Assembly: GCF_017808105.1 (NCBI RefSeq)
Contig: NZ_JADBHF010000001.1
Location: forward strand, 1 to 64,000
Length of the DNA: 64,000 nucleotides
DNA from: Brevibacterium renqingii
GTDB taxonomy: Bacteria > Actinomycetota > Actinomycetes > Actinomycetales > Brevibacteriaceae
Direction of reading: 5' to 3'
Under the pieces are notes generated by a model. It ran no database searches and was not told the origin of the DNA. It was given only the letters and a program-made list of their open reading frames with translations. Position 1 is the first letter of the stretch; each line of letters opens with the position of its first letter. Shown piece after piece: positions 12,334 through 44,332 of the stretch. The translations under genes were made by a program, and so were the position numbers.

Positions 12334-13440
12334 ATGACCATCGACGTTCCCACCACAGGCCGCTCACTGCCCCAGCTGCAGCCGATCAGCTTCATCGACG
12401 CGGATGGCCGGCTCACCGACACTCCGACGGCAGGGCTGCGGATTCCCGGCGACCGCACTCTGACCGGTCTCTACCGGCAGATGGTCTTCGTCCGACGGTT
12501 CGAAGCGCAGGTCACGCACCTGACCCGACAGGGGCGGCTCGCGACCTACCCCTCGGCGGCCGGTCAGGAAGCCGCCGAGGTGGGGGCCACGACCGCGCTG
12601 GCCCCCGGCGATTGGCTCTTCCCCACCTACCGCGATTCGGCAGCGCTGCTGACCCGCGGTGTGCCGGTGGGCGAGATCCTCGCAGCCTTCCGCGGCGACT
12701 GGCACTGCGGCTTCGACCCGAACGAATACCACACCTCGCCAGCGGCGACACCGCTGGCGACGCAGACCCTGCACGCCACGGGCTTCGCCATGGCGGCGAA
12801 GCTGAAGGGAGCGGATGCGGCGACTCTGACCTTCCTCGGCGATGGTGCCAGCAGTGAGGGCGACGCCCACGAGGCCTTCAACTTCGCCTCCGTGTGGCAG
12901 ACGCCGACCGTGTTCGTCCTCCAGAACAACCAGTACGCTATCTCGACCCCGCTGCGGGAGCAGACCAACGCGACCATGCTCGCCGACCGGGCCGCGGGCT
13001 ACGGGATGCCGGGCCTGCGGGTCGACGGCAATGACGTCGCGGCCGTGTTCGCCGCCGTCACCGCCGCCCTCGAGCGCGGTCGCAACGGGGACGGGCCGAC
13101 CCTCATCGAGTGCCTGACCTACCGGATGGAGTCGCATACGAACTCCGATGATCCGACGAAGTACCGCGAGGCCGAGGAGGTCGAGCACTGGAGGCAGTTC
13201 GATCCCATCGACCGTCTCGAGAAGTATCTGCGGTCGACCGGCGCCGTCGACGACGCCGGCATCGAGGAGATCGCCGCGGCCGCCGAGGCCCTGGCCGAGT
13301 CCGTCCGCGACGCGATGAACCGCGAGGCCGAGATCGACCCGCTCGAGCTCTTCGCCCACGTGTACGCGCAGCCGCGCACCGATCTCGCCGAACAGCAGCA
13401 GGTCCTCGAAGCCGAACTCGCAGCGGCAGGTCGGGCATGA
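12334..13440 (+). CDS. 2-oxoacid dehydrogenase E1 alpha subunit (branched-chain or pyruvate)
   Basis: This 368-residue thiamine diphosphate enzyme subunit decarboxylates a 2-oxoacid as part of a multienzyme complex. The ThDP motif GDGASSEGDAHEAFNFA with QNNQYAIS spans residues 169-207, and FPTYRDSAALL and YRMESHTNSDDP are family hallmarks. It overlaps the E1 beta start by 4 bp, and E2 follows, so the three are co-translated. The substrate is not decidable from sequence. Actinobacteria normally oxidise pyruvate with a homodimeric AceE, so the heterotetrameric type here favours branched-chain 2-oxoacids. No E3 gene is adjacent. Confidence 0.9.
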   Translation: MTIDVPTTGRSLPQLQPISFIDADGRLTDTPTAGLRIPGDRTLTGLYRQMVFVRRFEAQVTHLTRQGRLATYPSAAGQEAAEVGATTALAPGDWLFPTYRDSAALLTRGVPVGEILAAFRGDWHCGFDPNEYHTSPAATPLATQTLHATGFAMAAKLKGADAATLTFLGDGASSEGDAHEAFNFASVWQTPTVFVLQNNQYAISTPLREQTNATMLADRAAGYGMPGLRVDGNDVAAVFAAVTAALERGRNGDGPTLIECLTYRMESHTNSDDPTKYREAEEVEHWRQFDPIDRLEKYLRSTGAVDDAGIEEIAAAAEALAESVRDAMNREAEIDPLELFAHVYAQPRTDLAEQQQVLEAELAAAGRA

Positions 13441-14462
13441 GCGTCGAAGTCGACACGAGCACTCGGACCCCTTCGGCCCCCGCCGCGGAAGCGGTGACGA
13501 TGGCGAAGGCGCTGAACCGGGCCCTGCGCGACAGCCTCGCCGAGGACGACACCGTGCTCATCTTCGGCGAGGACGTCGGCCGCCTCGGCGGGGTCTTCCG
13601 CGTCACCGAAGGTCTGCGGGCCGAATTCGGTTCGACCCGGGTGTGGGATTCGCCCCTGGCCGAGTCCGGGATCATCGGCACCGCCATCGGCATGGCCATG
13701 AACGGGATGCGCCCGGTCGTCGAGATGCAGTTCGACGCCTACGCCTACCCCGCGTTCGAGCAGATCGTGTCGCATGTGGCGAAGATGCGCAACCGGACGA
13801 AGGGCAGGGTCGCCCTGCCGATCACGATCCGGATCCCCTACGCCGGCGACATCGGCGGCGTCGAACACCACTCGGACTCCTCCGAGGCCTACTGGACCTC
13901 GACGCCAGGGCTGACCGTCGTCACCCCATCGAATCCGGCCGATGCCTATGCGCTGCTGCGCGAGTCGATCGCCTCCGACGATCCCGTGGTGTTCATGGAG
14001 CCGAAGTCGCGGTACTGGATGAAGGAGACCGTGAGCCTGCCCGTGGCCACGGGGCCGATGCACCGGGCACAGGTGCTCCGCGAAGGCACCGATGCCACGC
14101 TGCTCGCCTACGGTCCGACCGTGCGCACCGCGCTGGACTCCGCGGAAGCAGGCGCCGAGCACGGCCTGTCCGTCGAGGTCATCGACCTGCGCACGCTCTC
14201 ACCGTTCGACGACGAGACCGTGTCCGCCTCGGTGCGCAAAACCTCGCGGGCGGCGATCATCCACGAGGCCGCCCGGTTCGGCGGCTACGGCGCCGAGGTG
14301 GCCGCCCGCCTCACCGAACGCAACTTCACCCATCTGTCGGCCCCGATCCTGCGGATCACCGGGTTCGACGTGCCCTACCCGTCCCCCAAGCTCGAGGAGT
14401 ACTTCTTGCCCACCGTCGAACGCGTGCTCGATGCGCTCGAGTCCTGGGACTGGGAGCTGTGA
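13437..14462 (+). CDS. 2-oxoacid dehydrogenase E1 beta subunit
   Basis: The 341-residue beta subunit completes the E1 active site. Recognisable segments are LIFGEDVGRLGGVFRVTEGL, PLAESGIIGTAIGMAMNGM, the region around EMQFDAYAYPAFEQIVSH and the C-terminal EVIDLRTLSPFDDETV. The ATG overlaps the E1 alpha stop (ATGA), and the stop overlaps the E2 start by one base (TGATG). That implies tight stoichiometric coupling of the three products. Confidence 0.93.
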   Translation: MSVEVDTSTRTPSAPAAEAVTMAKALNRALRDSLAEDDTVLIFGEDVGRLGGVFRVTEGLRAEFGSTRVWDSPLAESGIIGTAIGMAMNGMRPVVEMQFDAYAYPAFEQIVSHVAKMRNRTKGRVALPITIRIPYAGDIGGVEHHSDSSEAYWTSTPGLTVVTPSNPADAYALLRESIASDDPVVFMEPKSRYWMKETVSLPVATGPMHRAQVLREGTDATLLAYGPTVRTALDSAEAGAEHGLSVEVIDLRTLSPFDDETVSASVRKTSRAAIIHEAARFGGYGAEVAARLTERNFTHLSAPILRITGFDVPYPSPKLEEYFLPTVERVLDALESWDWEL

Positions 14463-15721
14463 TGAGTGCGGATCTGGGCACCGGCACGCGCGAGTTCATC
14501 CTCCCCGACCTCGGCGAGGGGCTGACCGAGGCCGAACTGATCTCGTGGAAGGTCGCCGTCGGCGACGAGGTCCACGTCGATCAGATGGTCGTCGAGGTCG
14601 AATCCGCCAAGTCCGTCGTCGAACTCCCCTGCCCCTACGCCGGACGCATCATCAGCCTCCACGCCGCGGCCGGTGACACCGTCACCGCCGGTCAGGTCCT
14701 GTTCTCCGTCGCCGAGGCGGAGGCAGAGTCCGGCGGCGCGAACCTCATCGGCTACGGCACTTCCGAACCGAAGACCAGGTCGACGAGGAACCGCTCGTTC
14801 GGCGCGAAGAGAGCCCCCGAGCTTGTCTCCCCCGTGTCATCGCCTCTCGTGCGCAGGCTCGCGAAGGACCACGGGATCAGCGCCAAGCACCTGCCCGGCA
14901 GCGGTCCCGGCGGAGTCGTGACGAGGGCCGATGTCCTCGCCGCCATCGAATCCGGGACCTCCCAACCGCAGATGCCCACCGGATCGGGAACCGCCCCGGC
15001 GGGGGAGCCTGCAGCAGCAGTGGCCGGCGACCGCGACACCCGCACCCCGATCACGGGGCTGCGGAAGGTCGTCTCCGAACGCCTGGCGAAGTCGCGGCAG
15101 GAGATCCCCGAGGCGACGATCTGGCTCGACGTCGACGCCACCGAACTGCTGGCCACGAACCGCGTCCTCGAAGAGCGCACGGGCGAGAAGTACTCGCTGC
15201 TGTCCCTCGTCGCCCGCTTCGTCATCGCCGGCCTCAGGAAGTTCCCGATCCTCAACTCCTCGATCGACACCGCAGCCGGTGAGATCGTCACCCACGGCGA
15301 CATCAACCTCGGCTTAGCCGCGCAGACGCCGCGCGGTCTCATGGTCCCCGTCGTCCACGGAGCCGATGGGATGAGCCTGCGGCAGCTGCGGGACTCCGTG
15401 GCCGCGACCGTGGACAAGGCCGGCACCGGCAGGTTCGATCCGGCCGAGCTGACCGGCGGCACGTTCACGCTCAACAACTACGGCGTCTTCGGCGTCGACG
15501 GATCCGCGCCGATCATCAACCTGCCCGAGGTCGCCATGCTCGGCCTGGGGCGGATCAAGGAGCGCCCGTGGGTCGTCGACGGTGAGCTCACCGTCCGCAG
15601 GGTCATGTACTTGAGCTTCGTCTTCGATCACCGCGCCTGCGACGGCGCCGAGCCGAGCGAGTTCCTCACCTTCGTCGCCGACTGCATCGAGAACCCGATC
15701 TCTCTGCTGCCCGAGCTCTGA
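14462..15721 (+). CDS. Dihydrolipoamide acyltransferase (E2)
   Basis: The 419-residue core enzyme transfers the acyl group to CoA. Residues 10-85 form one lipoyl domain with the lipoylated lysine in VESAKSVVE. A peripheral subunit-binding domain is near 125-165 (SPLVRRLAKDHGISAKHLPGSGPGGVVTRADV). The rest is the catalytic domain, ending in the active-site motif DHRACDG. Only one lipoyl domain is present, as in branched-chain complexes. The last 56 bp overlap the 3' end of the convergent FUSC-type gene. Confidence 0.93.
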   Translation: MSADLGTGTREFILPDLGEGLTEAELISWKVAVGDEVHVDQMVVEVESAKSVVELPCPYAGRIISLHAAAGDTVTAGQVLFSVAEAEAESGGANLIGYGTSEPKTRSTRNRSFGAKRAPELVSPVSSPLVRRLAKDHGISAKHLPGSGPGGVVTRADVLAAIESGTSQPQMPTGSGTAPAGEPAAAVAGDRDTRTPITGLRKVVSERLAKSRQEIPEATIWLDVDATELLATNRVLEERTGEKYSLLSLVARFVIAGLRKFPILNSSIDTAAGEIVTHGDINLGLAAQTPRGLMVPVVHGADGMSLRQLRDSVAATVDKAGTGRFDPAELTGGTFTLNNYGVFGVDGSAPIINLPEVAMLGLGRIKERPWVVDGELTVRRVMYLSFVFDHRACDGAEPSEFLTFVADCIENPISLLPEL

Positions 15722-31425: not shown

Positions 31426-32574
31426 TCAGGCTCCGGTGGCGGCCGCGCTGGCCACGGGCGCGTGTGCGCTCACGTGTGTGGTCGCGATCCAGAAGGCGTC
31501 GTAGTTGTGCAGTGCGGCCTCCTCACCGTTCGGACCTCGGCTCTTCGTCTCCTCGGGGGTGGGGACTGCGCGGTTGATGAGGAACGGAATGTCGAGCTCC
31601 CCGAGGCCGCCGTGGGACCGCAGCGGCACGTCGAGGTTCTTCAGATCGTGCCATTCCGGGTATCTGCCGATCGCCGAGAACTTATCGGACAGAACCGTGA
31701 TGTCCCCCATCCGGTCCAGTGGCATCGAGTAGAGCTCGGCTGCATCCTCCGAACGCAGGATCGCTGTCAGCCCTTCCTTGTCGGCCAGCCCCGCGATGAC
31801 CTTCTCCCGGTCAGCTCCTTCGGGAAGATAGACATTGGCGAAGGAGCCCAGCGCACCGTGATGGACGGTGTAGGGATCCGTGATGGGAAGGATGACACGG
31901 CTTCCGGTCTCCCCCGCGCCGATTCCCAGAATGGAGTCGACTTCGCTCTCGAGGTAGACGACCCGTGGCGTTCCGTCGTCCTTGTGCTTGGGACTCATGC
32001 CATGGTCGGCGGTGATGGCGACGACGGCACCGAGTTCGTCCAGCTGTGCGGCGTAGGAGTCGAGCATCGCATAGAAGTCGTCGGCGACATCGGTGCCAGG
32101 AGCGTTCTTGTGCTGGATGTAGTCGGTCAGCGTGAGGTACATGATGTCCGGACGGCGATCGGCAAGGAGCCGGACACCGGCGGCGAGGACGAATTCGCTC
32201 AGTTCGGCCGAATAGACATCCGGCAGCGGCATGCCCACGTAATCGAGGACGCCGTCGATTCCATTGGCCTCCTTCGTCGCGGTGTCGGCCTTCTGCGCGG
32301 AGAAGCAGATGCCCGTCCGCCGTGGGCTGACCATCTCTCCGGATCCTGCAGGGTCGAGTGCGGGCTCGGTGACCCCACTGGCCAGCAGGGCCCGCAGCTT
32401 GTCCTTGGCGGTGACGACGGCGACATCGAGCCCGGCATCGACGGCGGCGGCGAATACTGTCGGGGCACGCAGGTACGAGCCCGAGATCGAACTCGAAGTT
32501 CCTGCAGTTCTCAGTCTTGGCTCGATCGTCGCCGGGAAGAAGCCCCGAAAGGCTGATATGGCTATCGAGTATTC
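31426..32574 (-). pseudogene. phnA: Phosphonoacetate hydrolase, 5'-truncated
   Basis: The frame is open from a stop at 32575-32577 to 31426 but has no ATG, GTG or TTG before an internal ATG at 32334. Similarity to PhnA begins near 32480 (YLRAPTVFAAAVDAGLDVAV, then VTAKDKLRALL) and runs to the end, including metal-ligand segments LTLTDYIQHK, ITADHGM and RSHGGLGE. The first 100 or so codons of the family, which carry the N-terminal aspartate and the catalytic threonine, are absent. The 200 bp upstream contain only palindromes and short repeats. Protein started at 32334 would be 302 residues and lack the nucleophile. It would normally split phosphonoacetate into acetate and phosphate. Confidence 0.85.
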
Positions 32575-32777: not shown

Positions 32778-34172
32778 TCAGTCAGCCACGTAGTACATGC
32801 GCTTGTTGACGAACTCGTCCATGCCGTAGGGGCCGAGCTCGCGGCCGAAGCCCGAGCGCTTGGTGCCGCCGAACGGGATCTCCGCACCCTCACCCGCAGG
32901 GGTGTTGACGTTGGACATGCCGACGTCGAGGCGCTGCGCGAGCTTCGCGGCCCGGTCCTGATCCTTGGCGAACACGGCGCCGCCGAGGCCGAAGCGCGTG
33001 TCATTGGCGAGCTTGAGCGCTTCGTCGTCGCTGGTCACCTTGTACACGGTGGCGACGGGACCGAAGAGCTCCTCGCGGTAGGCGTCCATCTCCGAGGTGA
33101 CTCCGGTCAGCACCGCCGGCGAGACGTAGGCCGAGCCGTCGGAGGCCAGCTCGCCGCCGACGAGGGTCGCACCCTGCTCGACCGCGCGGTCGAGCTGCTT
33201 GCGCAGGTTCTCGGCCGCCCCGCGAGAGGACAGCGGCGAGTACTTGCCGTCGCCCGCCTCGGCGGGGGTGCCCTTCTCCCATTCCTGGGCGCGCTTGGTC
33301 AGTCCGGACACGAAGTCGTCGTAGATGTCGTCCATGACGATCATGCGCTTGTTGGCATTGCAGACCTGGCCGGTGTTGTACAGGCGGGTGCCCCATGCGG
33401 TGTCGACGGCCTCGTCCATGTTCTCCGTGTCGAGGACGATGTAGGGATCGGAGCCGCCGAGCTCGAGCACGGCCTTCTTGAGGTTCTTGCCGGCGGTGGC
33501 GGCCACGGCCGAGCCCGCACGCTCGGAGCCGGTGAGCGAGACGCCCTCGATCCGGTCATCGGCGATGATGGTCTCGATCTGCTCATGCGTGGCGTAGACG
33601 TTGTTGTACACGCCCTCGGGAATTCCGGCTTCCTTCATGAGTTCGGCGATCTTCGCCGAGGAGCGGGGGCAGATCTCGGCGTGCTTGAGGATGATCGTGT
33701 TGCCGAGGACGAGGTTCGGTGCGGCGAAGCGTGCGACCTGGTAGTAGGGGAAGTTCCACGGCATGATGCCCAGCAGCGCGCCGACGGGACGGCGCTGGAT
33801 GAAGGCCTTGCCGCCCGACATCGACTTGATGGGCTCATCGGCGGCGAACTCCGGACCGTTGTCGGCGTAGTAGTTGAAGATCTCCTCGCAGAATTCCGCT
33901 TCCTCGATGCCCTCGGCGACGGGCTTGCCCATCTCCTCGGCGATGATCTTCGCGAGCTCTTCCTTGTGCTCGCCGAAGAGGGAGGCGACCTTGTTGACGA
34001 CGGCCGCGCGCTCTTCGATGGTCTTCTCGCGCCAGGTCAGGAAGCCCTGATGAGCGGCCTCGAGGACCTCCTCGATCTGCGCGTCGGTGGCGTTGTCGAA
34101 CTTCTCGACGATTTCACCGGTGGCCGGATTCTCGACGCGGTAACCGCCTGCAGCACTGCCTACGTTGCTCAT
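32778..34172 (-). CDS. gabD: NAD(P)-dependent succinate-semialdehyde dehydrogenase-type enzyme
   Basis: The 464-residue aldehyde dehydrogenase starts with YRVENPATGEIVEKFDNATDAQIEEVL. The catalytic glutamate is in AVLELGGSDPYIVL and the nucleophilic cysteine in YNTGQVCNANKRM. The short form and the GKPVAEGIEEAEFCEEIFNYYADN region match the Sad/GabD2-like group that oxidises succinate semialdehyde in GABA breakdown; other aldehydes remain possible. I start it at the ATG at 34172, with AAGGAG 6 bp upstream, not at 34223. The promoter region behind it has two palindromes. No GABA transaminase is adjacent. Confidence 0.85.
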   Translation of the reverse strand: MSNVGSAAGGYRVENPATGEIVEKFDNATDAQIEEVLEAAHQGFLTWREKTIEERAAVVNKVASLFGEHKEELAKIIAEEMGKPVAEGIEEAEFCEEIFNYYADNGPEFAADEPIKSMSGGKAFIQRRPVGALLGIMPWNFPYYQVARFAAPNLVLGNTIILKHAEICPRSSAKIAELMKEAGIPEGVYNNVYATHEQIETIIADDRIEGVSLTGSERAGSAVAATAGKNLKKAVLELGGSDPYIVLDTENMDEAVDTAWGTRLYNTGQVCNANKRMIVMDDIYDDFVSGLTKRAQEWEKGTPAEAGDGKYSPLSSRGAAENLRKQLDRAVEQGATLVGGELASDGSAYVSPAVLTGVTSEMDAYREELFGPVATVYKVTSDDEALKLANDTRFGLGGAVFAKDQDRAAKLAQRLDVGMSNVNTPAGEGAEIPFGGTKRSGFGRELGPYGMDEFVNKRMYYVAD

Positions 34173-34412: not shown

Positions 34413-35891
34413 TCAGTCGAAGCGGCGCGAGGAGCCGATCTCGTCGCCTGCCTTCCATTCTGCCCAGCCGGGCTGATCGACCATGAACGACTCGATCGTG
34501 TCCTTGTCCGCGCGCAGCTGCGGATCGTGTTTGAGATAGTGCTTCGTCTCCCGTGCGATGAGACCGGAGAGGATGAGGATGCCGAGCAGGTTCGGCAGGG
34601 CCATGAGGCCGTTCATCACGTCCGAGAAGTTCCAGATCGGTTCGAGCTCGGTGGTGCAGCCGACGAACACGACGAGGGAGAAGAAGATCCGGAACGGCAG
34701 CACGCCGCGACGGCCGACGAGGCGTTCGACGTTGCGGTCGCCGTAGTACGACCAGCCGAGCAGGGTGGAGAAGGCGAAGAGGACGATGCCGAGGGTCACG
34801 ACCCAGTGGCCCCAGTGCCCCGGCAGGCCGTGGGAGAAGGCCTCACCGGTCATCAGGGCCGCACTGATCTGCTCTCCGGTCTCCGGGTCGATCTCGTCCC
34901 AGGTGCCGGTGGCGATGATCGTCAGGCCCGTGAAGCTGACGACGATGATCGTGTCGATGAAGGTCTGCGTCATCGACACGAGCCCCTGGCGGACCGGATG
35001 CGAGGTCTTCGCGGCGGCCGCCGCGATCGGAGCCGAGCCGAGACCCGATTCGTTCGAGAACAGGCCGCGGGCGACGCCCATCTGGACGACGACGATGATC
35101 GCCGAGCCCGCGAACCCGCCCACCGCCGAGGTGCCGGTGAAGGCTTCGGTGAAGATCTGCGCGAAGGCCGCCGGCAGGGCGCCGATGTTCGCGATGAGGA
35201 TGTAGATCGCGCCGAGGACGTAGAAGACGATCATGATCGGCACCAGGCCGGCCGTGACCCGACCGATGGATTTGATGCCGCCGACGAGCACGATGAGGGT
35301 GAGCACCGTGAGCACCGCGCCGGTGACCCAGGCGGGGATCGACCAGCTCGACTCCACATTCGCCGCGATCGAGTTGCCCTGCGTCATATTGCCGATGCCG
35401 AAGCAGGCGAGGACCGCGAAGATCGCGAACATCAGGCCCAGGACCTTGCCGAAGGGCCCCTTGATCCCCCGCTCGAGGTAGTACTGCGGGCCGCCGGACT
35501 TCTCACCGGCGTCATCGGTGCCGCGGAAGCGCACGGCGAGGAATCCCTCGGCGTACTTCGTGACCATGCCGAGCAGACCGGTCATCCACATCCAGAACAG
35601 CGCACCGGGCCCGCCGATGCCGATCGCGGTGGCCACACCGACGATGTTGCCGGTGCCGACCGTCGCCGCCAACGCCGTCGTCAGAGCCTGGAACTGCGAG
35701 ATGTCACCCTCGGAACCGGCGTCCTTGCGCTTGAGGATGCCGAGGTTCAGCGCCGGCAGCAGCTTGGTGAACTGCAGACCGCCGAGGCGGATCGTCAGAT
35801 AGAGGCCCGTGCCCAGCAGCAGGGGGATGAGCAGGAACGGACCCCAGACGAATCCGCTGATCGTATCGAAGAACTCGGCGACCGCATCCAT
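34413..35891 (-). CDS. AGCS-family sodium:alanine/glycine symporter
   Basis: The 492-residue symporter has about eleven helices. AGCS hallmarks are FQALTTALAATVGTGNIVGVATAIGIGGPGALFWMW, GGPQYYLERGIKG and FSNESGLGSAPIAAAAAKT. It imports alanine, glycine or a related small amino acid with sodium. The C-terminus is short and hydrophilic. It stands alone, with 151 bp separating it from the AceE-like gene upstream, and no co-transcribed enzyme is evident. A second AGCS protein is encoded at 42680-44332. Confidence 0.92.
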   Translation of the reverse strand: MDAVAEFFDTISGFVWGPFLLIPLLLGTGLYLTIRLGGLQFTKLLPALNLGILKRKDAGSEGDISQFQALTTALAATVGTGNIVGVATAIGIGGPGALFWMWMTGLLGMVTKYAEGFLAVRFRGTDDAGEKSGGPQYYLERGIKGPFGKVLGLMFAIFAVLACFGIGNMTQGNSIAANVESSWSIPAWVTGAVLTVLTLIVLVGGIKSIGRVTAGLVPIMIVFYVLGAIYILIANIGALPAAFAQIFTEAFTGTSAVGGFAGSAIIVVVQMGVARGLFSNESGLGSAPIAAAAAKTSHPVRQGLVSMTQTFIDTIIVVSFTGLTIIATGTWDEIDPETGEQISAALMTGEAFSHGLPGHWGHWVVTLGIVLFAFSTLLGWSYYGDRNVERLVGRRGVLPFRIFFSLVVFVGCTTELEPIWNFSDVMNGLMALPNLLGILILSGLIARETKHYLKHDPQLRADKDTIESFMVDQPGWAEWKAGDEIGSSRRFD

Positions 35892-36042: not shown

Positions 36043-38463
36043 TCAGCGGCCCACGAGGTCGAGCGCATTGCCGACGATCGAGGCCGAATCGATCCCGTGG
36101 ATCGCATAGGCCTCACTCACCGAGGAGGCCTGACCGAAATCGCTGACCCCGAGGTTGCGGGTGCGGTCCCCACGGATCCCGGCGAGGAACGCCAGGGTGT
36201 GCGGGTGCCCGTCGAGCACGGTCACCAGCGGGGCCGGATGCGCGGCCGGCAGCAGCTCCTCGGCGATCGCCGAGCGGCTGCTCGCACTCACCTTCGACCG
36301 CTCCTGGACGGCCCGGAAGATCTTCGACGGCGAGCTCAGGCACACGATCCCCGCGCGCACCCCGAAGGCCTCGAGCCGCGCCGCGGCCTCGATGACCTCG
36401 GTCATGATCGCCCCCGCGCCGACGAGCGTGACCTCGTCTTCGGCGGCCGGATGCCCGCTGAGCCGGTAGCCGCCGGCGATGACCTGCTCCCGGCGCCGGG
36501 ATCGCAGCAGCGCATCCTCGGGCACCGCCGCGAGCTCCTGCCTCACCGGTCGCGTCGTCAGCCGGAAGTATGCGGAATCGCCGTCCGGATCGGCGAGTTC
36601 GCGCAGCGCTTCGAGCAGGGTCCATTCGAGGTCCTGCGCGAAGGCCGGCTCCCAGCTCGTCAGTCCCGGGATCTCGAGGGTCACCGAGGGCGTGTTGAAG
36701 GACTGGTGCGCCCCTCCCTCGGGAGCCAGCGTCACTCCGGAGGGCGTGCCGACCATGATCGAGCGCCCGCCCGCATAGAGGCCGAAGGTCCAGGGCTCGA
36801 GCGCGCGGTTGATGAACGGATCGTAGATCGTCGCGATCGGCAGCAGCGGCTGTCCCCAGCGCGACCCCGTCGCACCGAGCTCCCCAGCCAGGGAGACGAG
36901 GTTGACCTCGGCGATGCCGAGTTCGATGTGCTGTCCGCCCGCGCCCTCCTGCCAGCGCAGCACCCGCTCCCGATCGTCGGAGAACCAGTCCTCGCGCCCG
37001 GCCGGAGACCAGATCCCGGTCTTGTTGATCCACCCGCCGAGGTTGGTCGACGTCGCGACGTCCGGGGAGACGGTGACGACCCGGTGGGCCACCTCGGGGG
37101 CGACGTGCTTGAGGTCGGAGAGGAACCGGCCCAGCGCCGCCTGGGTGGAGATCACTGACTTCGGGGTGAAGCCGAGCTCGGCGGGCACCTCGGCGACGGC
37201 GTGGGTCTCGAAGTCCTCGCGCCGCAGGCGCTGCGCGGTCTCGGCGCACAGCCTCCCGGCGGCGGTGTCGGGGTCGAAGGCGACCCAGGGATTCTCGAGT
37301 TCCATCCCCGAGGCGGCCGCCAGGTCGCGCATCTGCGCTTCGGTCAGCTGCGCGGCATGGTTGCCCGGATGCCCTTCGGTGGCCAGTCCCTTGCCCTTGA
37401 TCGTATAGGCGAAGACGACGCTCGGCCGCGAGTCGTCGATCGCCTCGAAGGTCGAGATGAGCTGGCCGAGGTCGTGGCCGCCGAGGTCGCGGATGAGGGT
37501 GGCGAGACCATCGGCGTCGAAGTCGTCGATGACGGTCCGCAGCGCGGCCGCCTCGGTCTCGGACAGGCCGGCGAGCAGGCGGTCGTGGACCTCGCTCGGA
37601 TGAGCGCGCAGCAGCCGCTGGTACTCGGGGTTGGGCATCGAGACGAGCCGGTCCTCAAGCGCCTGTCCCCCGGGGGCGGCGAACACGGCCTCGAGCCGGC
37701 GGCCCCAGGGGCAGGTGAGCACCTGCCACCCGGCCGCGTCGAACATACCCTGGAGGCGCTTGATCTGCACATCGGGGATGACCCGGTCGAGCGACTGCCG
37801 GTTGAGGTCGACTATCCACACGATCTCTCCGAGCGTGCGCACCTCGGGATCGATGATCGCCTCCCACACGGCCCCCTCGTCCATCTCCGCATCCCCGAGC
37901 AGGGAGTAGAAGCGTCCGGCCTCGGGTGTCTCGGGGAAGCGATCGGAGACGTAGCGGTGGGACAGCGCGGCCCAGATCGGCGCGGTCGCGCCGATGCCCA
38001 CGGATCCGGTGGAGAAGTCCACGGTGTCCGGGTCCTTCGTCCGCGACGGGTAGGGCTGGAGCCCGCCGCGCGAGCGCAGCGTATCGAGGTGGCCGACCTC
38101 GAGGTCGCCGAGGAGGTAGTTGATCGCGTGGAGCACCGGCGAGGCGTGCGGCTTGACCGAGACGCGATCATGCGAGCGCAGAGCCGTGAACCACAGCGCG
38201 GTCATGATGCCGGTCATCGACGCCGACGAGGACTGGTGCCCGCCGACCTTGACCCCGTCGGGGTTCGTCCGGCCGCGGTTGGCCCGATCGATGATCGACG
38301 TCGCCAGCCACAGCACCCGCTGCGCGATCTCGTCGAGGACCTCGTCCGTCCCCGAGGCCGATGCCCGCAGCGGACGATCGTTCCGTCCGGGCGGGCTGAC
38401 CTGGGTCGACGTCTCGAACTGATGGAGCTCCTCATCCTCGGCGGGCTCGGTGTTGATCGTCAT
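36043..38463 (-). CDS. AceE/transketolase-like thiamine diphosphate enzyme
   Basis: The 806-residue protein is laid out like the homodimeric pyruvate dehydrogenase E1. It has GGHQSSSASM near 74, the ThDP motif LLGDAEMDEGAVWEAI near 189 with DLNRQSLD, then AYTIKGKGLATEGHPGNHA near 357, HIELGIAEVNLVSLAGELGA and GTPSGVTLAPEGGAHQS. It lacks the N-terminal part of AceE that binds E2, and is about 80 residues shorter than E. coli AceE. The gene begins 12 bp after the ACC deaminase gene. I infer that it takes the 2-oxobutyrate made by that enzyme, either by oxidative decarboxylation or by a carboligase reaction. A true transketolase role is not excluded. Confidence 0.82.
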   Translation of the reverse strand: MTINTEPAEDEELHQFETSTQVSPPGRNDRPLRASASGTDEVLDEIAQRVLWLATSIIDRANRGRTNPDGVKVGGHQSSSASMTGIMTALWFTALRSHDRVSVKPHASPVLHAINYLLGDLEVGHLDTLRSRGGLQPYPSRTKDPDTVDFSTGSVGIGATAPIWAALSHRYVSDRFPETPEAGRFYSLLGDAEMDEGAVWEAIIDPEVRTLGEIVWIVDLNRQSLDRVIPDVQIKRLQGMFDAAGWQVLTCPWGRRLEAVFAAPGGQALEDRLVSMPNPEYQRLLRAHPSEVHDRLLAGLSETEAAALRTVIDDFDADGLATLIRDLGGHDLGQLISTFEAIDDSRPSVVFAYTIKGKGLATEGHPGNHAAQLTEAQMRDLAAASGMELENPWVAFDPDTAAGRLCAETAQRLRREDFETHAVAEVPAELGFTPKSVISTQAALGRFLSDLKHVAPEVAHRVVTVSPDVATSTNLGGWINKTGIWSPAGREDWFSDDRERVLRWQEGAGGQHIELGIAEVNLVSLAGELGATGSRWGQPLLPIATIYDPFINRALEPWTFGLYAGGRSIMVGTPSGVTLAPEGGAHQSFNTPSVTLEIPGLTSWEPAFAQDLEWTLLEALRELADPDGDSAYFRLTTRPVRQELAAVPEDALLRSRRREQVIAGGYRLSGHPAAEDEVTLVGAGAIMTEVIEAAARLEAFGVRAGIVCLSSPSKIFRAVQERSKVSASSRSAIAEELLPAAHPAPLVTVLDGHPHTLAFLAGIRGDRTRNLGVSDFGQASSVSEAYAIHGIDSASIVGNALDLVGR

Positions 38464-38475
38464 CGGTCCCTGCTC

Positions 38476-39492
38476 TCAGAAGATCGAGGAGTAGGCGTTG
38501 AGCGCGAGCTGTCCGCCGAGGTGGGCGTAGAGGACCGTGGAGTCCTTGTCGATCGTGCCGTCGCCGACGAGGTCGAGCAGACCGGCCATCGATTTGCCCT
38601 CGTAGACGGGGTCGAGGATGACGCCCTCGATCTGTGCGGTGGTGCGGATGGCGTTCACCGTCGACTCATCCGGGATGCCGTAGGCCGGGCCCTCCCAGCC
38701 CGAGCGGATGTCGACGTCGGCGTCGGTGATCTCGCGGCCGAGTCCGATGAGTTCGGCGGTGGTGTTCGCGATCCGCTTGACCTGGTCGCGGGTCTTGTCG
38801 ATCGTCGCGGAGGCGTCGATGCCGATGACCTTGCGCTTGGGGCCCCCGGCCGCCTCGAGTGCGGCGAAGCCGGCGATCATGCCCGCATGGGTCGAACCCG
38901 TCACCGTGCACACGACGATGGTGTCGAAGAAGACGCCGAGCTCCTTCTCCTGGTCGGCGACCTCATAGGCCCAGTTCGCGAAGCCGAGGCCGCCGAATCT
39001 GTGCTCCGAGGCTCCGGCCGGGATCGGGTACGGCTTGCCTCCGGCTTCCTCGACCTCGGCCAGGGCGTTCTCCCAGCTCGAGCGGATGCCGATGTCGAAT
39101 CCCGCCGAGTCGAGGCGGACGTCGGCCCCCATGATGCGCGAGAGCTCGATGTTGCCGACCTTGTCGTTGCCCGGGTCCTCCCAGTCGACCCAGCGCTCCT
39201 GCACGAGGCGGGCCTTGAGCCCGAGGTGGGCCGCCACGGCCGCGACCTGCCGGGTGTGGTTGGACTGGTAGCCGCCGATCGAGACGAGCGTGTCCGCCCC
39301 CGAGGCGAGGATGTCCGGAACGATGTACTCGAGTTTGCGCGTCTTGTTTCCGCCGAAGGCGAGACCGGAGTTGACGTCCTCGCGCTTGGCCCAGACCCGG
39401 GCCCCGCCGAGGTGGTCGCCCAGTCGCTTGAGTTCGTGCACGGGGCTGGGTCCGAAGGTGAGTGGGTAGCGCTCGAAGTCCGTGATGGCCAT
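38476..39492 (-). CDS. acdS: 1-aminocyclopropane-1-carboxylate deaminase
   Basis: This 338-residue PLP enzyme has exactly the usual family length. The PLP lysine lies in [10 protein letters not shown]. The residues that separate true ACC deaminase from D-cysteine desulfhydrase are the deaminase type: glutamate in DPVYEGKSM and leucine in LYAHLGG. It opens the cyclopropane ring to give 2-oxobutyrate and ammonia, which lets the cell use the plant ethylene precursor. The start is the ATG at 39492 with AGAGGA upstream; the frame extends further but without similarity. It is divergent from a GntR regulator and forms an operon with the AceE-like gene. Confidence 0.9.
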
Positions 39493-39584
39493 GGGGTCCT
39501 CTGTTCTCTTGACGATGTGGGTGGTTCTCAACGATGTGGGTGCCGGGGCAGGAGCGAAATCATGCTCTGGATCACTCCCTGCGA

Positions 39585-39602
39585 TATGCAATATATTACA
39601 TA
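39585..39602. promoter_or_regulatory. GntR operator candidate for the acdS operon
   Basis: TATGCAATATATTACATA is an 18-bp palindrome with a single mismatched pair. It lies between the divergent acdS operon and the GntR gene, 15 bp before the latter. The AT-rich core could also serve as a -10 region. The form resembles known FadR/FCD-type operators. Confidence 0.65.
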
Positions 39603-39617
39603 CCGGTGAGGACTACA

Positions 39618-40316
39618 ATGGGTTCGACGCCGCGTCCCGGGCTTCGGGACCGTTCGAGAAGAGAGGGGCCGAGTGTGCCGATTCCGACTGATGCCCCGGT
39701 CCCGCACCGCACCCTGCTGCGCGATGACGTGTACCGGGCGATCCGCGATGCCATCGTCCGCGGTCAGCTGGCTCCCGGGGAGCAGCTGCGGGACCAGGAG
39801 CTCGGGGCGTGGCTGCAGGTCTCGCGCACTCCTGTGCGCGAAGCGCTGCAGCGCCTGGCCCAGGCCGGACTCGTCGTCGCCCAGCCGGGGAAGATGACCC
39901 GGGTCGCTCCCGAGAACCCCGAGCTCATCCGCAGCGCGCGCCAGATCGCCGCCGAACTCCATGCGCTGGCGATGGATCTCGCCTTCGACCGGCTCGACGA
40001 GGAGGCCGCCGCCGAGATGGGAGCCGCGAATGCCCGCCTGCGGCGCGCCCTGGAGTCCGGCGACGCCGAGGCGGCCATCGCCGCCGATGACGATTTCCAC
40101 GAGACCGCCCTGGCCCGCAGCGGCAATCCGCTCATCCCCGATCACCTCGAGGTCGTCACCGCCACGCTGCGGCGCACCGAATATCTGCACTTCGATTCGG
40201 TCCGGGGCTCCGCCTCCCCCGACCAGCACGTCGACATCATCGCCGCCGTCCGCTCCGCGGATCGGGCTCGGGCCGTGGCGCTGACGAGGGAGAACTGGGC
40301 CGCCCTCGCCGGCTGA
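39618..40316 (+). CDS. GntR-family (FCD) regulator, likely of the acdS operon
   Basis: The 232-residue regulator has a GntR winged helix (RTLLRDDVYRAIRDAIVRGQLAPGEQLRDQELGAWLQVSRTPVREALQRL) and an FCD ligand domain with the segment AAIAADDDFHETALARSGNPLI that carries metal-binding residues. I use the ATG at 39618 with GAGGA 5 bp upstream; a GTG at 39675 with GAGAGGGG upstream is a credible alternative and would shorten it by 19 residues. Its position, divergent from acdS across a strong palindrome, makes it the probable ACC-responsive regulator, in place of the AcdR/Lrp protein known in proteobacteria. Confidence 0.85.
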   Translation: MGSTPRPGLRDRSRREGPSVPIPTDAPVPHRTLLRDDVYRAIRDAIVRGQLAPGEQLRDQELGAWLQVSRTPVREALQRLAQAGLVVAQPGKMTRVAPENPELIRSARQIAAELHALAMDLAFDRLDEEAAAEMGAANARLRRALESGDAEAAIAADDDFHETALARSGNPLIPDHLEVVTATLRRTEYLHFDSVRGSASPDQHVDIIAAVRSADRARAVALTRENWAALAG

Positions 40317-40323
40317 GCAGCGC

Positions 40324-41601
40324 TCAGGCGCTGAGCTCCCGCACCGCCGAGGCGAGGACCTCGATGCCCGCCCGGCAGTCCTCGGGGCTCGAGTACTCGC
40401 GGGGGTTGTGGCTGATGCCCTGATGCTGCCCGCGGACGAAGACCATGGCGGCCGGGGCGATCGCGGCGATCTCCTGGGCATCGTGTCCGGCTCCGGACAT
40501 GATCCGCATCGAGTCATGGCCGCGCTCCTTGGCCGCGGCCTCGAGGGTGTCCTGCACGGCCTCACTGAAGGGCACGGCCTTCGTCCTGGCCATCCGTGCG
40601 GTCTCGATCCGCAGTCCGGGCTGGGTCCCGGGCAGGGTGTCGATGAAGGCGGCGAGGTCCGCTTCGGCGCGGGCCATGTCCTCATCATCGGGATTGCGCA
40701 GGTCGACGGTGATCTCGGCCCGGTCCGGGACGACGCTCGGCAGGCCCGGGGAGGTCTCGATGCGTCCGACGGTCGCACGCAGGCGTCCGTAGGCTCCGGA
40801 GTCGACCATGCGACGGGCCTCGACGACGATCTGTGCGGCGGCGAGACCGGCGTCGACGCGCAGCTCGGTGGGCGTGGTGCCGGCATGGGCGGCGCGGCCG
40901 TGGAGAGTGACCTTCTGCCAGGAGATCGACTGGACGCCGGTGACGATGCCGATTGGCCGATCCTCCTGAGCCAGCACGGGTCCCTGTTCGATATGGCATT
41001 CGACATAGGCGTGCGGCGGGTCGAGGCGCACGGGGCGCTCACCCTTGAATCCGATGCGGGCGAGCTCGTCGCCGAGACTGCGCCCCTCGGCATCGGTGAG
41101 TCCGTAGGCGTGGTCGAGGCTCAGCCGGCCGGCGGCGACGGCCGATCCGAGCATGTCAGTGCCGAACCGCACCCCTTCCTCCTCCGTCCAGGCCGCCACG
41201 ACGATCGGACGGCGGGTGCGCAGCCCGATCGCGTCGAAGGCCCGCAGAACGGCGAGGCCGCCGAGCACGCCGAGGCAGCCGTCGAAGGCTCCTGCGGTGG
41301 CGACCGTGTCGATGTGCGAACCGATGAGCACCGGGGCGAGGCCGGGATCGGTGCCTTCCCGCCTGCCGAAGACGCTGCCCATCTCATCGATGGTGACCTC
41401 GAGTGCGAGCTCGGCCATCCACGAGATGAGCAGCTGCCTGCCCGCCCTGTCCGCATCTGTCAGGGACTGCCGGTCGACGCCTCTGAGCCCCGTGGCTTCG
41501 TCGTCATAGGCTCCGATCGTCGCGAGCTCCATGAGATCGGCCCACAGGCGGTCTCCGTCGATGCTCAGCTCTGCTGTCGGGGCGGTGGTCTCCGCGTCCA
41601 T
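40324..41601 (-). CDS. M20-family N-carbamoyl-amino-acid hydrolase or allantoate amidohydrolase
   Basis: The 425-residue zinc hydrolase has the M20/HyuC arrangement: IGSHIDTVATAGAFDGCLGVL with metal-binding His and Asp, WTEEEGVRFGTDMLGS with the catalytic and bridging acids, ECHIEQGPVL, the dimer-domain segment HGRAAHAGTTP, and SGAGHDAQEI. It cleaves carbamoyl or ureido groups from amino acids or allantoate; the two cannot be separated by eye. The start is the ATG at 41601 with GGAGG upstream. It is divergent from a LysR regulator and converges on the GntR gene with a 7-bp gap. Confidence 0.85.
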   Translation of the reverse strand: MDAETTAPTAELSIDGDRLWADLMELATIGAYDDEATGLRGVDRQSLTDADRAGRQLLISWMAELALEVTIDEMGSVFGRREGTDPGLAPVLIGSHIDTVATAGAFDGCLGVLGGLAVLRAFDAIGLRTRRPIVVAAWTEEEGVRFGTDMLGSAVAAGRLSLDHAYGLTDAEGRSLGDELARIGFKGERPVRLDPPHAYVECHIEQGPVLAQEDRPIGIVTGVQSISWQKVTLHGRAAHAGTTPTELRVDAGLAAAQIVVEARRMVDSGAYGRLRATVGRIETSPGLPSVVPDRAEITVDLRNPDDEDMARAEADLAAFIDTLPGTQPGLRIETARMARTKAVPFSEAVQDTLEAAAKERGHDSMRIMSGAGHDAQEIAAIAPAAMVFVRGQHQGISHNPREYSSPEDCRAGIEVLASAVRELSA

Positions 41602-42679: not shown

Positions 42680-44332
42680 TCAGTCCTCGACCTTCTCGCG
42701 ATCCAGCTTCTTCCTCCGCAGCGCATCCCGCACCTCACGGAGCTTGTCGCGCTTGCGCTTCCGGCCCGCCTCGGCGGCCTTGATCTGCTCCAGGGTCGGC
42801 TCGTGGTCGCCCATGCCGACCTGGAGCTCGGCGGGGGTGATCTCCTTCATCACGCCGACATCGATCCTCTTGCGCAGGCGCAGGATCTCGAGGCGGAGGA
42901 TGCGGGAGAGGAAATAGATGCCGAGCAGATTCGGGAAGGCCATGAGGAAGAAGATCGCATCGGAGAAGGCGATGACCGAGTCCAGCGACATCGACGCGCC
43001 GATGACCACGGCCACGATCCAGAAGATCTGATACGCCTTGTCCGCCTTCTTCGAATTCCCCGTCAGATACCCCAGGGCCTGCTGACCGTAGTAGCCGTAG
43101 GCGAGGATCGTCGAGAACGCCAAGAGGACGACGGCGATGGTGAGCAGGATCGGGAACCAGCCCGCGACGGTGGCGAAGGCCTCGGAGGTCAGGCCGATGC
43201 CGTCCTCGGTGCTCTCGCCGTAGAGGCCTGTGGTGATGATCGCCAGCGAGGTGAGGGTGCAGATGATGACGGAGTCGATGAGCGGCTCCCACATCGCGAC
43301 GAACCCCTCGGTCGCGGGCTTCGTCGTCTTCGAAGCCGCATGCGCCATGCCTGCGGAGCCGACGCCGGCGGCATTGGAGAACAGGGCGCGCTGGATGCCG
43401 ACGATGGCCACGCCCACGGCTCCGCCGGCGACGCCGCTGGGACTGAAGGCGCCTGCGAACATGAGTGCGAAGGCGTGCGGGATCTGATCGACGTTCATCA
43501 CGAGGATGACGATGACGGAGAGGAAGTAGAGGACCGCCATCATCGGAGTCAGCTTCGACGTCCACTGGCCGATTTTCTTGATCCCGCCGAGGATGACCAG
43601 CGCGGTCAGCGCCGCGATGACCACACCGATGAGCCAGAGCTTGTCGGCGAAGAAGCTCGAGTCACCGCCCGTGGCGCTGACGAGGATCGCGGCGGCCTGG
43701 TTGGCCTGGAACAGATTGCCGGCGCCGATGACGCCGAGCACGGTGGTCAGAGCGTAGAAGACCGCGAGGAACCTGCCGAGCTTCGGGCGGCCGATCTCGG
43801 CGAGGCCGTCGCGCAGGTAGTACATCGGGCCGCCGGCGACGCTGCCGTCGGCGTTGATCTGCCGATACTTCACACCCAGCGTCGCCTCGGCCATCTTCAC
43901 GGTCATCGCGAAGAAGCCGAAGATGATGATCCACAGGGCCGCGCCCGGCCCGCCGATCGTGATCGCCACGGCGACGCCGGCGATGTTGCCGAGTCCGACC
44001 GTGCCCGAGAGCTCGGTGGCGAGCGCCTGGAAGCTCGAGACCTCGCCGGGGTCGGTCTTGCGGGTGAAGCGCCCGCGGATGATTCCGACCGAGTACTTGA
44101 GGCCGGTGAGCGGCTGGAAGCGCAGATAGAAGGTGAGGAAGACCGCTGCGGCCATGAGCCACACGACGATGAGAGGGATTCCGAGCTCGCCGATCTGGAG
44201 CTCGAAGAAGACGATGTTGCTGAAGGCCTGGGCCGCGGGCCCGAGGAACGACTCGATGGCCGCATCGACGCCGGCGGCTCTGAGGCCCGCCTCGGCGGTG
44301 GTCTGGGCGAGATGTTCGGTTATGGGATTCAT
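42680..44332 (-). CDS. AGCS-family sodium:amino-acid symporter, second copy
   Basis: This second AGCS symporter has about eleven helices and the family stretches FQALATELSGTVGLGNIAGVAVAITIGGPGAALWI, GGPMYYLRDGLAE and FSNAAGVGSAGMAHAASKT. Unlike the copy at 34413-35891, it has a 50-residue basic, Lys/Arg-rich cytoplasmic tail after residue 500 (GRKRKRDKLREVRDALRRKKLD). The two are far from identical, so they are old paralogues and not a recent duplication. The ATG at 44332 is preferred but has no clear ribosome binding site; the ATG at 44395 is possible. Confidence 0.88.
   Translation of the reverse strand: MNPITEHLAQTTAEAGLRAAGVDAAIESFLGPAAQAFSNIVFFELQIGELGIPLIVVWLMAAAVFLTFYLRFQPLTGLKYSVGIIRGRFTRKTDPGEVSSFQALATELSGTVGLGNIAGVAVAITIGGPGAALWIIIFGFFAMTVKMAEATLGVKYRQINADGSVAGGPMYYLRDGLAEIGRPKLGRFLAVFYALTTVLGVIGAGNLFQANQAAAILVSATGGDSSFFADKLWLIGVVIAALTALVILGGIKKIGQWTSKLTPMMAVLYFLSVIVILVMNVDQIPHAFALMFAGAFSPSGVAGGAVGVAIVGIQRALFSNAAGVGSAGMAHAASKTTKPATEGFVAMWEPLIDSVIICTLTSLAIITTGLYGESTEDGIGLTSEAFATVAGWFPILLTIAVVLLAFSTILAYGYYGQQALGYLTGNSKKADKAYQIFWIVAVVIGASMSLDSVIAFSDAIFFLMAFPNLLGIYFLSRILRLEILRLRKRIDVGVMKEITPAELQVGMGDHEPTLEQIKAAEAGRKRKRDKLREVRDALRRKKLDREKVED

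Follow-up and report, generated by a model that had tools for sequence, protein, structure and literature searches.

The first 64,000 nucleotides of contig NZ_JADBHF010000001.1 of Brevibacterium renqingii (assembly GCF_017808105.1), called the window below, encode a 1-aminocyclopropane-1-carboxylate (ACC) deaminase, AcdS, and, 12 bp away on the same strand, an 806 amino acid thiamine enzyme that resembles both the homodimeric pyruvate dehydrogenase E1 (E1p, AceE) and transketolase and that is called TKL here. The best reading of TKL is as an enzyme that consumes 2-oxobutyrate, the carbon product of ACC deamination, and on balance we lean towards a dedicated 2-oxobutyrate E1 in ACC catabolism that is predicted to work through a lipoyl E2. 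The pairing of acdS with TKL is more than chance, as is seen from purifying selection on TKL and from the conserved linkage of the two genes. The open reading frames, the gap between them and the length of TKL given in an initial annotation of this DNA were all found; both genes lie on the minus strand, which that annotation left unstated. Gene calls are from a script with predicted starts, and the whole genome comprises 3.64 Mb in 50 contigs. The core of the locus is as follows:

38476..39492, minus strand: acdS, ACC deaminase, 338 amino acids, ATG at 39492 (TIGR01274 score and alignment with 1rqx over residues 3-338)
38464..38475, minus strand: acdS-TKL intergenic gap, 12 bp
36043..38463, minus strand: TKL, homodimeric E1p/transketolase-like thiamine enzyme, 806 amino acids, proposed 2-oxobutyrate E1 (profile scores and E1p-like model fold)

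AcdS passes TIGR01274 (535.9 bits, cut-off 392), aligns end to end with ACC deaminases of solved structure (433 bits to 1rqx over residues 3-338), and has the sequence DPVYEGKSM, with the YEG motif and Glu295, aligned with 1rqx and 1f2d; the initial identification as ACC deaminase is thereby upheld. E295 and L322 are named as required in ACC deaminase in the accessible text of PMC4048297. The gene has one match in its own genome (G000) in both the order and the phylum searches. D-cysteate sulfo-lyase is ruled out by a CuyA score of 296.1 against a cut-off of 450, and D-cysteine desulfhydrase by 217.5 against 429 for the best-scoring desulfhydrase equivalog. Family membership supports the prediction that AcdS converts ACC to 2-oxobutyrate and ammonia.

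TKL lies below the cut-offs of the aceE model TIGR00759 (219.8 versus 859.9 bits) and of TIGR03186 (194.7 versus 1408.3 bits), the model tied to MdeB, and its best NCBIfam transketolase score is 126.6 where the cut-offs are at least 488. E. coli E1p aligns with TKL residues 49-781 at 154 bits, and identity to AceE is 21-25%. The AlphaFold model of TKL (19 input sequences, mean pLDDT 78.4, pTM 0.78) has E. coli E1p as its nearest fold, with a Z of about 39 over about 718 residues, and transketolase ranks after it (Z 36-37 at best over about 610 residues). Two identities that the initial annotation had set against its own proposal do not fit: a true transketolase is ruled out by the scores and by the fold ranking, and the sole pyruvate dehydrogenase E1 of the cell by two other genes of the same genome that exceed the AceE cut-off (1330.8 and 1303.4 bits). 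By eye, one of these two AceE genes precedes genes resembling a fatty-acid-synthesis set; the second (L106:6800-9535) lies apart from that copy. TKL keeps residues aligned with E. coli H106, H142, Y177, D230, N260, D521, E571, Y599 and H640 (E. coli numbering), so by model and alignment the E1p fold and thiamine-site residues appear mostly kept, the positions of E522 and H407 apart. In comparison with nine congeners, TKL has non-synonymous divergence (dN) of 0.07-0.11 and synonymous divergence (dS) of 0.49-0.65, which indicates purifying selection.

The protein had also been described as lacking the usual N-terminal E2-docking segment of AceE, and this holds. Residues 1-75 of one B. renqingii AceE, compared with the first 150 residues of 136 TKLs (duplicates included, predicted starts), found the four AceE proteins of the set (one the source of the query, one entered twice) with a weakest E of 1.2e-18, and none of the 136 TKLs better than E 0.34. 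It is hardly credible, then, that TKL serves as a reserve pyruvate dehydrogenase E1 to keep up acetyl-CoA supply when ACC-derived 2-oxobutyrate inhibits the main enzyme: the E1p fold would suit such a role, and in E. coli an acetate bypass replacing pyruvate dehydrogenase is described, in the accessible text of PMC7824062, as easing 2-oxobutyrate toxicity, but TKL has no docking segment for the housekeeping E2, and all 16 TKLs of alignment A1 have Val where E. coli has E522.

Linkage to acdS is kept in relatives, so the further reservation of the initial annotation, that the two genes might be unlinked there, falls away. A TKL of at least 72% identity is present in 26 genomes (23 including that of the window, plus G119, G160 and L111), and acdS adjoins it in 25 of these; the 25 include G024, where TKL is split over contigs, G017, on a short contig, and L111, labelled a Kocuria metagenome-assembled genome (MAG), and L110 and L112 are not counted apart from G005 and G030. 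In the exception, G008, no acdS passes the threshold and TKL is represented solely by its 3' part, inside a long contig. Linkage also reaches three distant TKL clades, each with a different layout. The order is GntR-acdS-TKL in G051 (TKL of 46-47% identity; one in-frame stop in acdS) and acdS-lipA-RidA-TKL-E2 on a plasmid of Rhodococcus pseudokoreensis R79, and acdS is divergent from TKL at 119-801 bp in the Acidimicrobiales MAG L188, G346, G474 and G558; just upstream of TKL, G346 and G474 each have a gene with similarity (33% and 42%; similarity only) to a GntR-like protein of the window.

The acdS label needs four changes on a tree of 125 TKLs (125 rows, 121 different; without TKL matches under 650 residues and L061, L074, L075, L076, L077, L090 and L159) and six on a second tree of 131 TKLs (also without the near-duplicates L045, L046, L048, L049, L050, L110, L112, L143 and L166), at least five of the six being forced by starred branches. 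Some of these changes may be losses, and the safe statement is that acdS-linked TKLs fall in four separate parts of the tree. The loci of TKL relatives were taken from the best 80 of 479 relatives and are no even sample. For 100 loci outside the Brevibacterium clade, 0.06 cases would be expected by chance, assuming random gene order and 4 Mb genomes, and three were seen.

Co-occurrence, the check that the initial annotation had proposed, agrees with this. Among 396 genomes of the phylum TKL is present in 30, acdS in 21 and the two together in 8, where 1.6 would be expected (Fisher p 4e-5), and with the B. renqingii genome excluded both are present in 7 of 395 against 1.5 expected (p 2e-4); as the genomes are related these p values are guides only. 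The genes are adjacent in four of the eight (G000, G346, G474 and G558), 14.4 kb apart in G424, and on different contigs in G410, G608 and G616. Among 297 genomes of the order the figures are 29 with TKL, 53 with acdS and 21 with both, and by coordinates 13 of the 21 pairs are adjacent (12 in the genus, and G051) and 8 are not.

Other TKL loci bear on the substrate. Methionine gamma-lyase usually also gives 2-oxobutyrate, and in L088 and L165 the gene immediately upstream of TKL is methionine gamma-lyase-like (below the cut-off of that model, which is its best match); like an MdeB-type enzyme, TKL thus adjoins a 2-oxobutyrate-making pyridoxal phosphate (PLP) enzyme, AcdS here and the gamma-lyase-like protein in those two loci. 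A PLP gene also stands a few genes before a distant TKL relative in Tritonibacter, and in L085 TKL follows genes for methylmalonyl-CoA carboxytransferase, an enzyme of propionyl-CoA metabolism (5S 925.1 bits, cut-off 827; 12S-like 790.6, below cut-off). That the substrate of TKL is instead a different 2-oxo acid, or that the enzyme is a carboligase, with acdS beside it through shared amino-acid use and not through product-substrate coupling, seems improbable to us. The varied neighbours within the family (Lrp-type regulators, an aminotransferase, HMG-CoA-lyase-like and CaiB-like proteins) and a fold also close to that of transketolase would accord with it; against it, two unrelated types of 2-oxobutyrate-making enzyme recur next to TKL, linked TKLs occur in four parts of the tree, and pyruvate is already served by two AceE genes.

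We note that in L165, from Streptomyces sp. SCUT-3, the methionine gamma-lyase-like gene overlaps the start of TKL (L165:5781-9367); an mdeA gene of this strain, perhaps the one in L165, is given in the accessible text of PMC7181669 as up 28.6-fold on feather. In the B. renqingii genome itself, a methionine gamma-lyase-like gene (L105:3403-4575; 333.2 bits where the cut-off is 549.7) stands about 2.5 kb before one of the AceE genes and has an Lrp-type gene divergent from it; the lyase-like protein may be another supplier of 2-oxobutyrate near an E1.

A lipoyl E2 follows TKL in several sister loci. A match to a small E2, the mini-E2, is found after TKL in all nine Rhodococcus plasmid loci (H1-H9; L221 a fragment only, L220 partial) and also in L121, L123, L132 and L167. 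It consists of a lipoyl and a catalytic domain, and lacks the E3_binding domain PF02817 in the two that were scanned (Rhodococcus set L035, L036, L215-L221); the three B. renqingii E2s scanned carry PF02817, the classical binding domain. Since mini-E2s without PF02817 stand beside TKLs without the docking segment, a docking-free E1 occurs with E2s that lack the docking domain. We tentatively raise, with some doubt, the wider possibility that TKL belongs to a distinct docking-free family of 2-oxo-acid E1 enzymes, served by E2s without the classical binding domain or by none, that may have been recruited several times to ACC deaminase.

The remaining features of the locus that are needed here are these:

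39675..40316, plus strand: GntR/FCD regulator, divergent from acdS, of the acd-AR type of PMC4048297 (start predicted by script)
39586..39601, no strand: near-palindrome ATGTAATATATTGCAT, putative and likely operator of the divergent GntR regulator
34413..35891, minus strand: AgcS-type sodium:amino-acid symporter, candidate ACC importer (TIGR00835 508.2 bits, cut-off 272.65)
32778..34172, minus strand: ALDH_A, aldehyde dehydrogenase (below the cut-offs of the 25 aldehyde dehydrogenase models shown)

The symporter gene follows TKL on the same strand after 151 bp, and ALDH_A comes next after 240 bp. ALDH_A lends itself to the rival account that TKL is a stand-alone 2-oxobutyrate decarboxylase giving propanal, which an aldehyde dehydrogenase would oxidise to propionate, an account that we regard as rather unlikely. 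It would explain the lost docking segment, since no E2 is needed, and would suit a genome without a mini-E2. Aldehyde dehydrogenase neighbours also favour it: downstream of TKL, ALDH_A is present in the window and in each of the 13 fetched loci of 84-89% identity that extend that far (L042-L053, L104), aldehyde dehydrogenase genes stand beside TKL in L086, L087, L113, L114 and L117, and in G424 and G608, where acdS is elsewhere (L195, L196), one is immediately upstream of TKL. However, ALDH_A is not beside the TKL orthologues of 72-76% identity, and its presence does not track that of TKL, because it has a conserved upstream region of its own and keeps its place next to acdS in five genomes whose acdS locus has no TKL; these five TKL-less loci weaken the case for it as an obligate TKL partner. 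The sister TKLs with their own E2 favour an E2-coupled enzyme.

Several observations weigh against TKL as a dedicated 2-oxobutyrate E1 that works through an E2. No mini-E2 was found in the B. renqingii genome among seven matches, which fall on four genes with other E2-type partners, and since the scanned E2s of this genome are classical as well, no E2 partner can be named in it. The position of E. coli E522, a residue presumably near the substrate, is Val and that of Q140 is Lys in the four TKLs compared, Val469 and Lys104 being invariant in the 19 sequences of alignment A3; no His of TKL aligns with E. coli H407, and H369 is two places away. HMG-CoA-lyase-like and CaiB-like genes stand beside TKLs in L037, L089/L166, L113 and L114, and a CaiB gene in L117, so the TKL family is broader than 2-oxobutyrate, and such neighbours, or aldehyde dehydrogenases, in these loci suggest another oxo-acid pathway there; the G424 and G608 loci, with their aldehyde dehydrogenase gene, favour the decarboxylase account. 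Many acdS genomes have no TKL over threshold (32 of the 53 sampled in the order and 13 of the 21 sampled in the phylum), acdS is present in only one of the nine Rhodococcus plasmid TKL loci, and 6 of the 18 Brevibacterium acdS genomes of the order sample have no TKL beside acdS.

Five of these six Brevibacterium loci (L092-L096) keep GntR-acdS-ALDH_A with TKL absent between, and no remnant of TKL was seen in them, the first 400 bases past acdS matching nothing but the stretch that leads up to and into ALDH_A; the sixth, in G311 (L097), has neither TKL nor ALDH_A beside acdS. Elsewhere in the same genomes a TKL of 58-59% identity is present in G029, G076, G187 and G311, and none over threshold in G022 and G146. 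In G424 (L194:3978-9651) and in G311 (L097:673-8956), acdS has no adjacent TKL and lies a few kb from E1-alpha- and E1-beta-like genes of another 2-oxo-acid dehydrogenase, accompanied in G424 by a small lipoyl protein.

A dedicated 2-oxobutyrate-consuming step, as proposed initially, thus stands as the best reading, given the two AceE genes, the fold nearer to E1p and the linkage in relatives, including distant clades, but not as a general property of acdS carriers. In the scheme that we favour, AcdS would deaminate ACC to 2-oxobutyrate and TKL would decarboxylate it; the 12-bp gap and the one conserved palindrome suggest that the two genes are probably cotranscribed and controlled by the divergent GntR protein. 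By analogy with the relatives that have a dedicated E2, the propionyl group would most likely be handed to a lipoyl E2 to give propionyl-CoA, through an E1-E2 contact other than the classical one between the E1 N-terminus and the E2 binding domain, and the propionyl-CoA would enter the methylcitrate route. The genome has prpB (417.2 bits, cut-off 354.4) and prpC (630.1 bits, cut-off 479) side by side and two prpD matches, neither of which reaches the cut-off and one of which stands just ahead of prpB, and no methylmalonyl-CoA mutase match was found in it by a search that found the mutase in 8 of 14 control genomes; from these genes, handling of propionyl-CoA by the methylcitrate route is likely.

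The GntR and FCD Pfam matches of the regulator fall in a longer open reading frame, 39534-40316, and a GntR gene adjoins acdS in relatives. Between GntR and acdS, members of the genus carry the palindrome ATGYAATATATTGCAT or a close variant of it, and ATGCAATATATTGCAT is the form met most often in relatives; variants are visible in L042, L055, L056, L059 and L111, though missed by the search pattern, and the 14-base core has one site in the B. renqingii genome at up to one mismatch. Together with the 12-bp gap, the conserved palindrome suggests that acdS and TKL form one GntR-controlled unit.

An AgcS symporter gene is at the equivalent place in L043 and L104 as well; a role of the window protein in ACC import is a candidate function. 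A second AgcS symporter is encoded near acdS at 42680-44332, and an M20-type amidase just past the GntR gene at 40324-41601 (TIGR01879 369.7 bits, cut-off 204) could release ACC from conjugates; M20 genes near acdS are noted in other organisms in the accessible text of PMC4048297. Positions 31426-32334 encode a protein related to PhnA (phosphonoacetate hydrolase), below the cut-off (300.7 versus 407.55). Elsewhere in the window, 12334-15721 holds E1-alpha-like, E1-beta-like and E2 genes of another 2-oxo-acid dehydrogenase, of branched-chain type by look, whose E2 carries the classical binding domain.

The closest known arrangement is the mde operon of Pseudomonas putida, which Inoue et al. are said to have described in 1997 (J. 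Bacteriol. 179:3956) and which reportedly encodes methionine gamma-lyase (MdeA) and a 2-oxobutyrate dehydrogenase E1 (MdeB). There too the gene of a PLP enzyme that yields 2-oxobutyrate goes together with that of a homodimeric E1-type thiamine enzyme that uses up this product, a function that is predicted here; the B. renqingii locus differs in that the producer is ACC deaminase and the regulator GntR/FCD, and TKL has no N-terminal docking segment. Because it falls far short on TIGR03186, TKL is not filed as an MdeB-type member, despite its proposed MdeB-like working. From AceE (TIGR00759; E. coli 1l8a, 2g25, 4qoy), with which it shares the fold over most of the chain and most thiamine-site residues, it differs in its low identity and profile score, the missing docking segment and the Val at the E522 position; with transketolase it shares domain layout and fold, but E1p ranks higher in both sequence and fold. 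The initial annotation knew of no earlier description of its proposal for ACC use. In a literature search confined to open-licence papers, no title coupling a 2-oxobutyrate E1 step to ACC deaminase was found; the coupling of a 2-oxobutyrate E1 with a PLP lyase is already known from the reported mdeAB precedent, and its ACC version is the new part. In the accessible text of PMC4048297, acd-AR GntR genes are beside acdS in many Actinobacteria, as GntR is here, but the word "dehydrogenase" is absent from its main text, and the carbon product of ACC deaminase figures there solely as something that could potentially serve as a carbon source.

Bacteria that promote plant growth have been much studied for their ACC deaminase. 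If it has a recurring E1 partner, some actinobacteria would use ACC in full and remove a toxic intermediate, and this could set the amount of ACC that they draw from plants. Should the docking-free family prove real, ACC would be a full carbon source by way of propionyl-CoA, beyond its role as a nitrogen source, and the handover from E1 to E2 would proceed by an undescribed contact; with a docking-free E1 family beside E2s that have no binding domain, the structural question of how the two recognise each other becomes testable.

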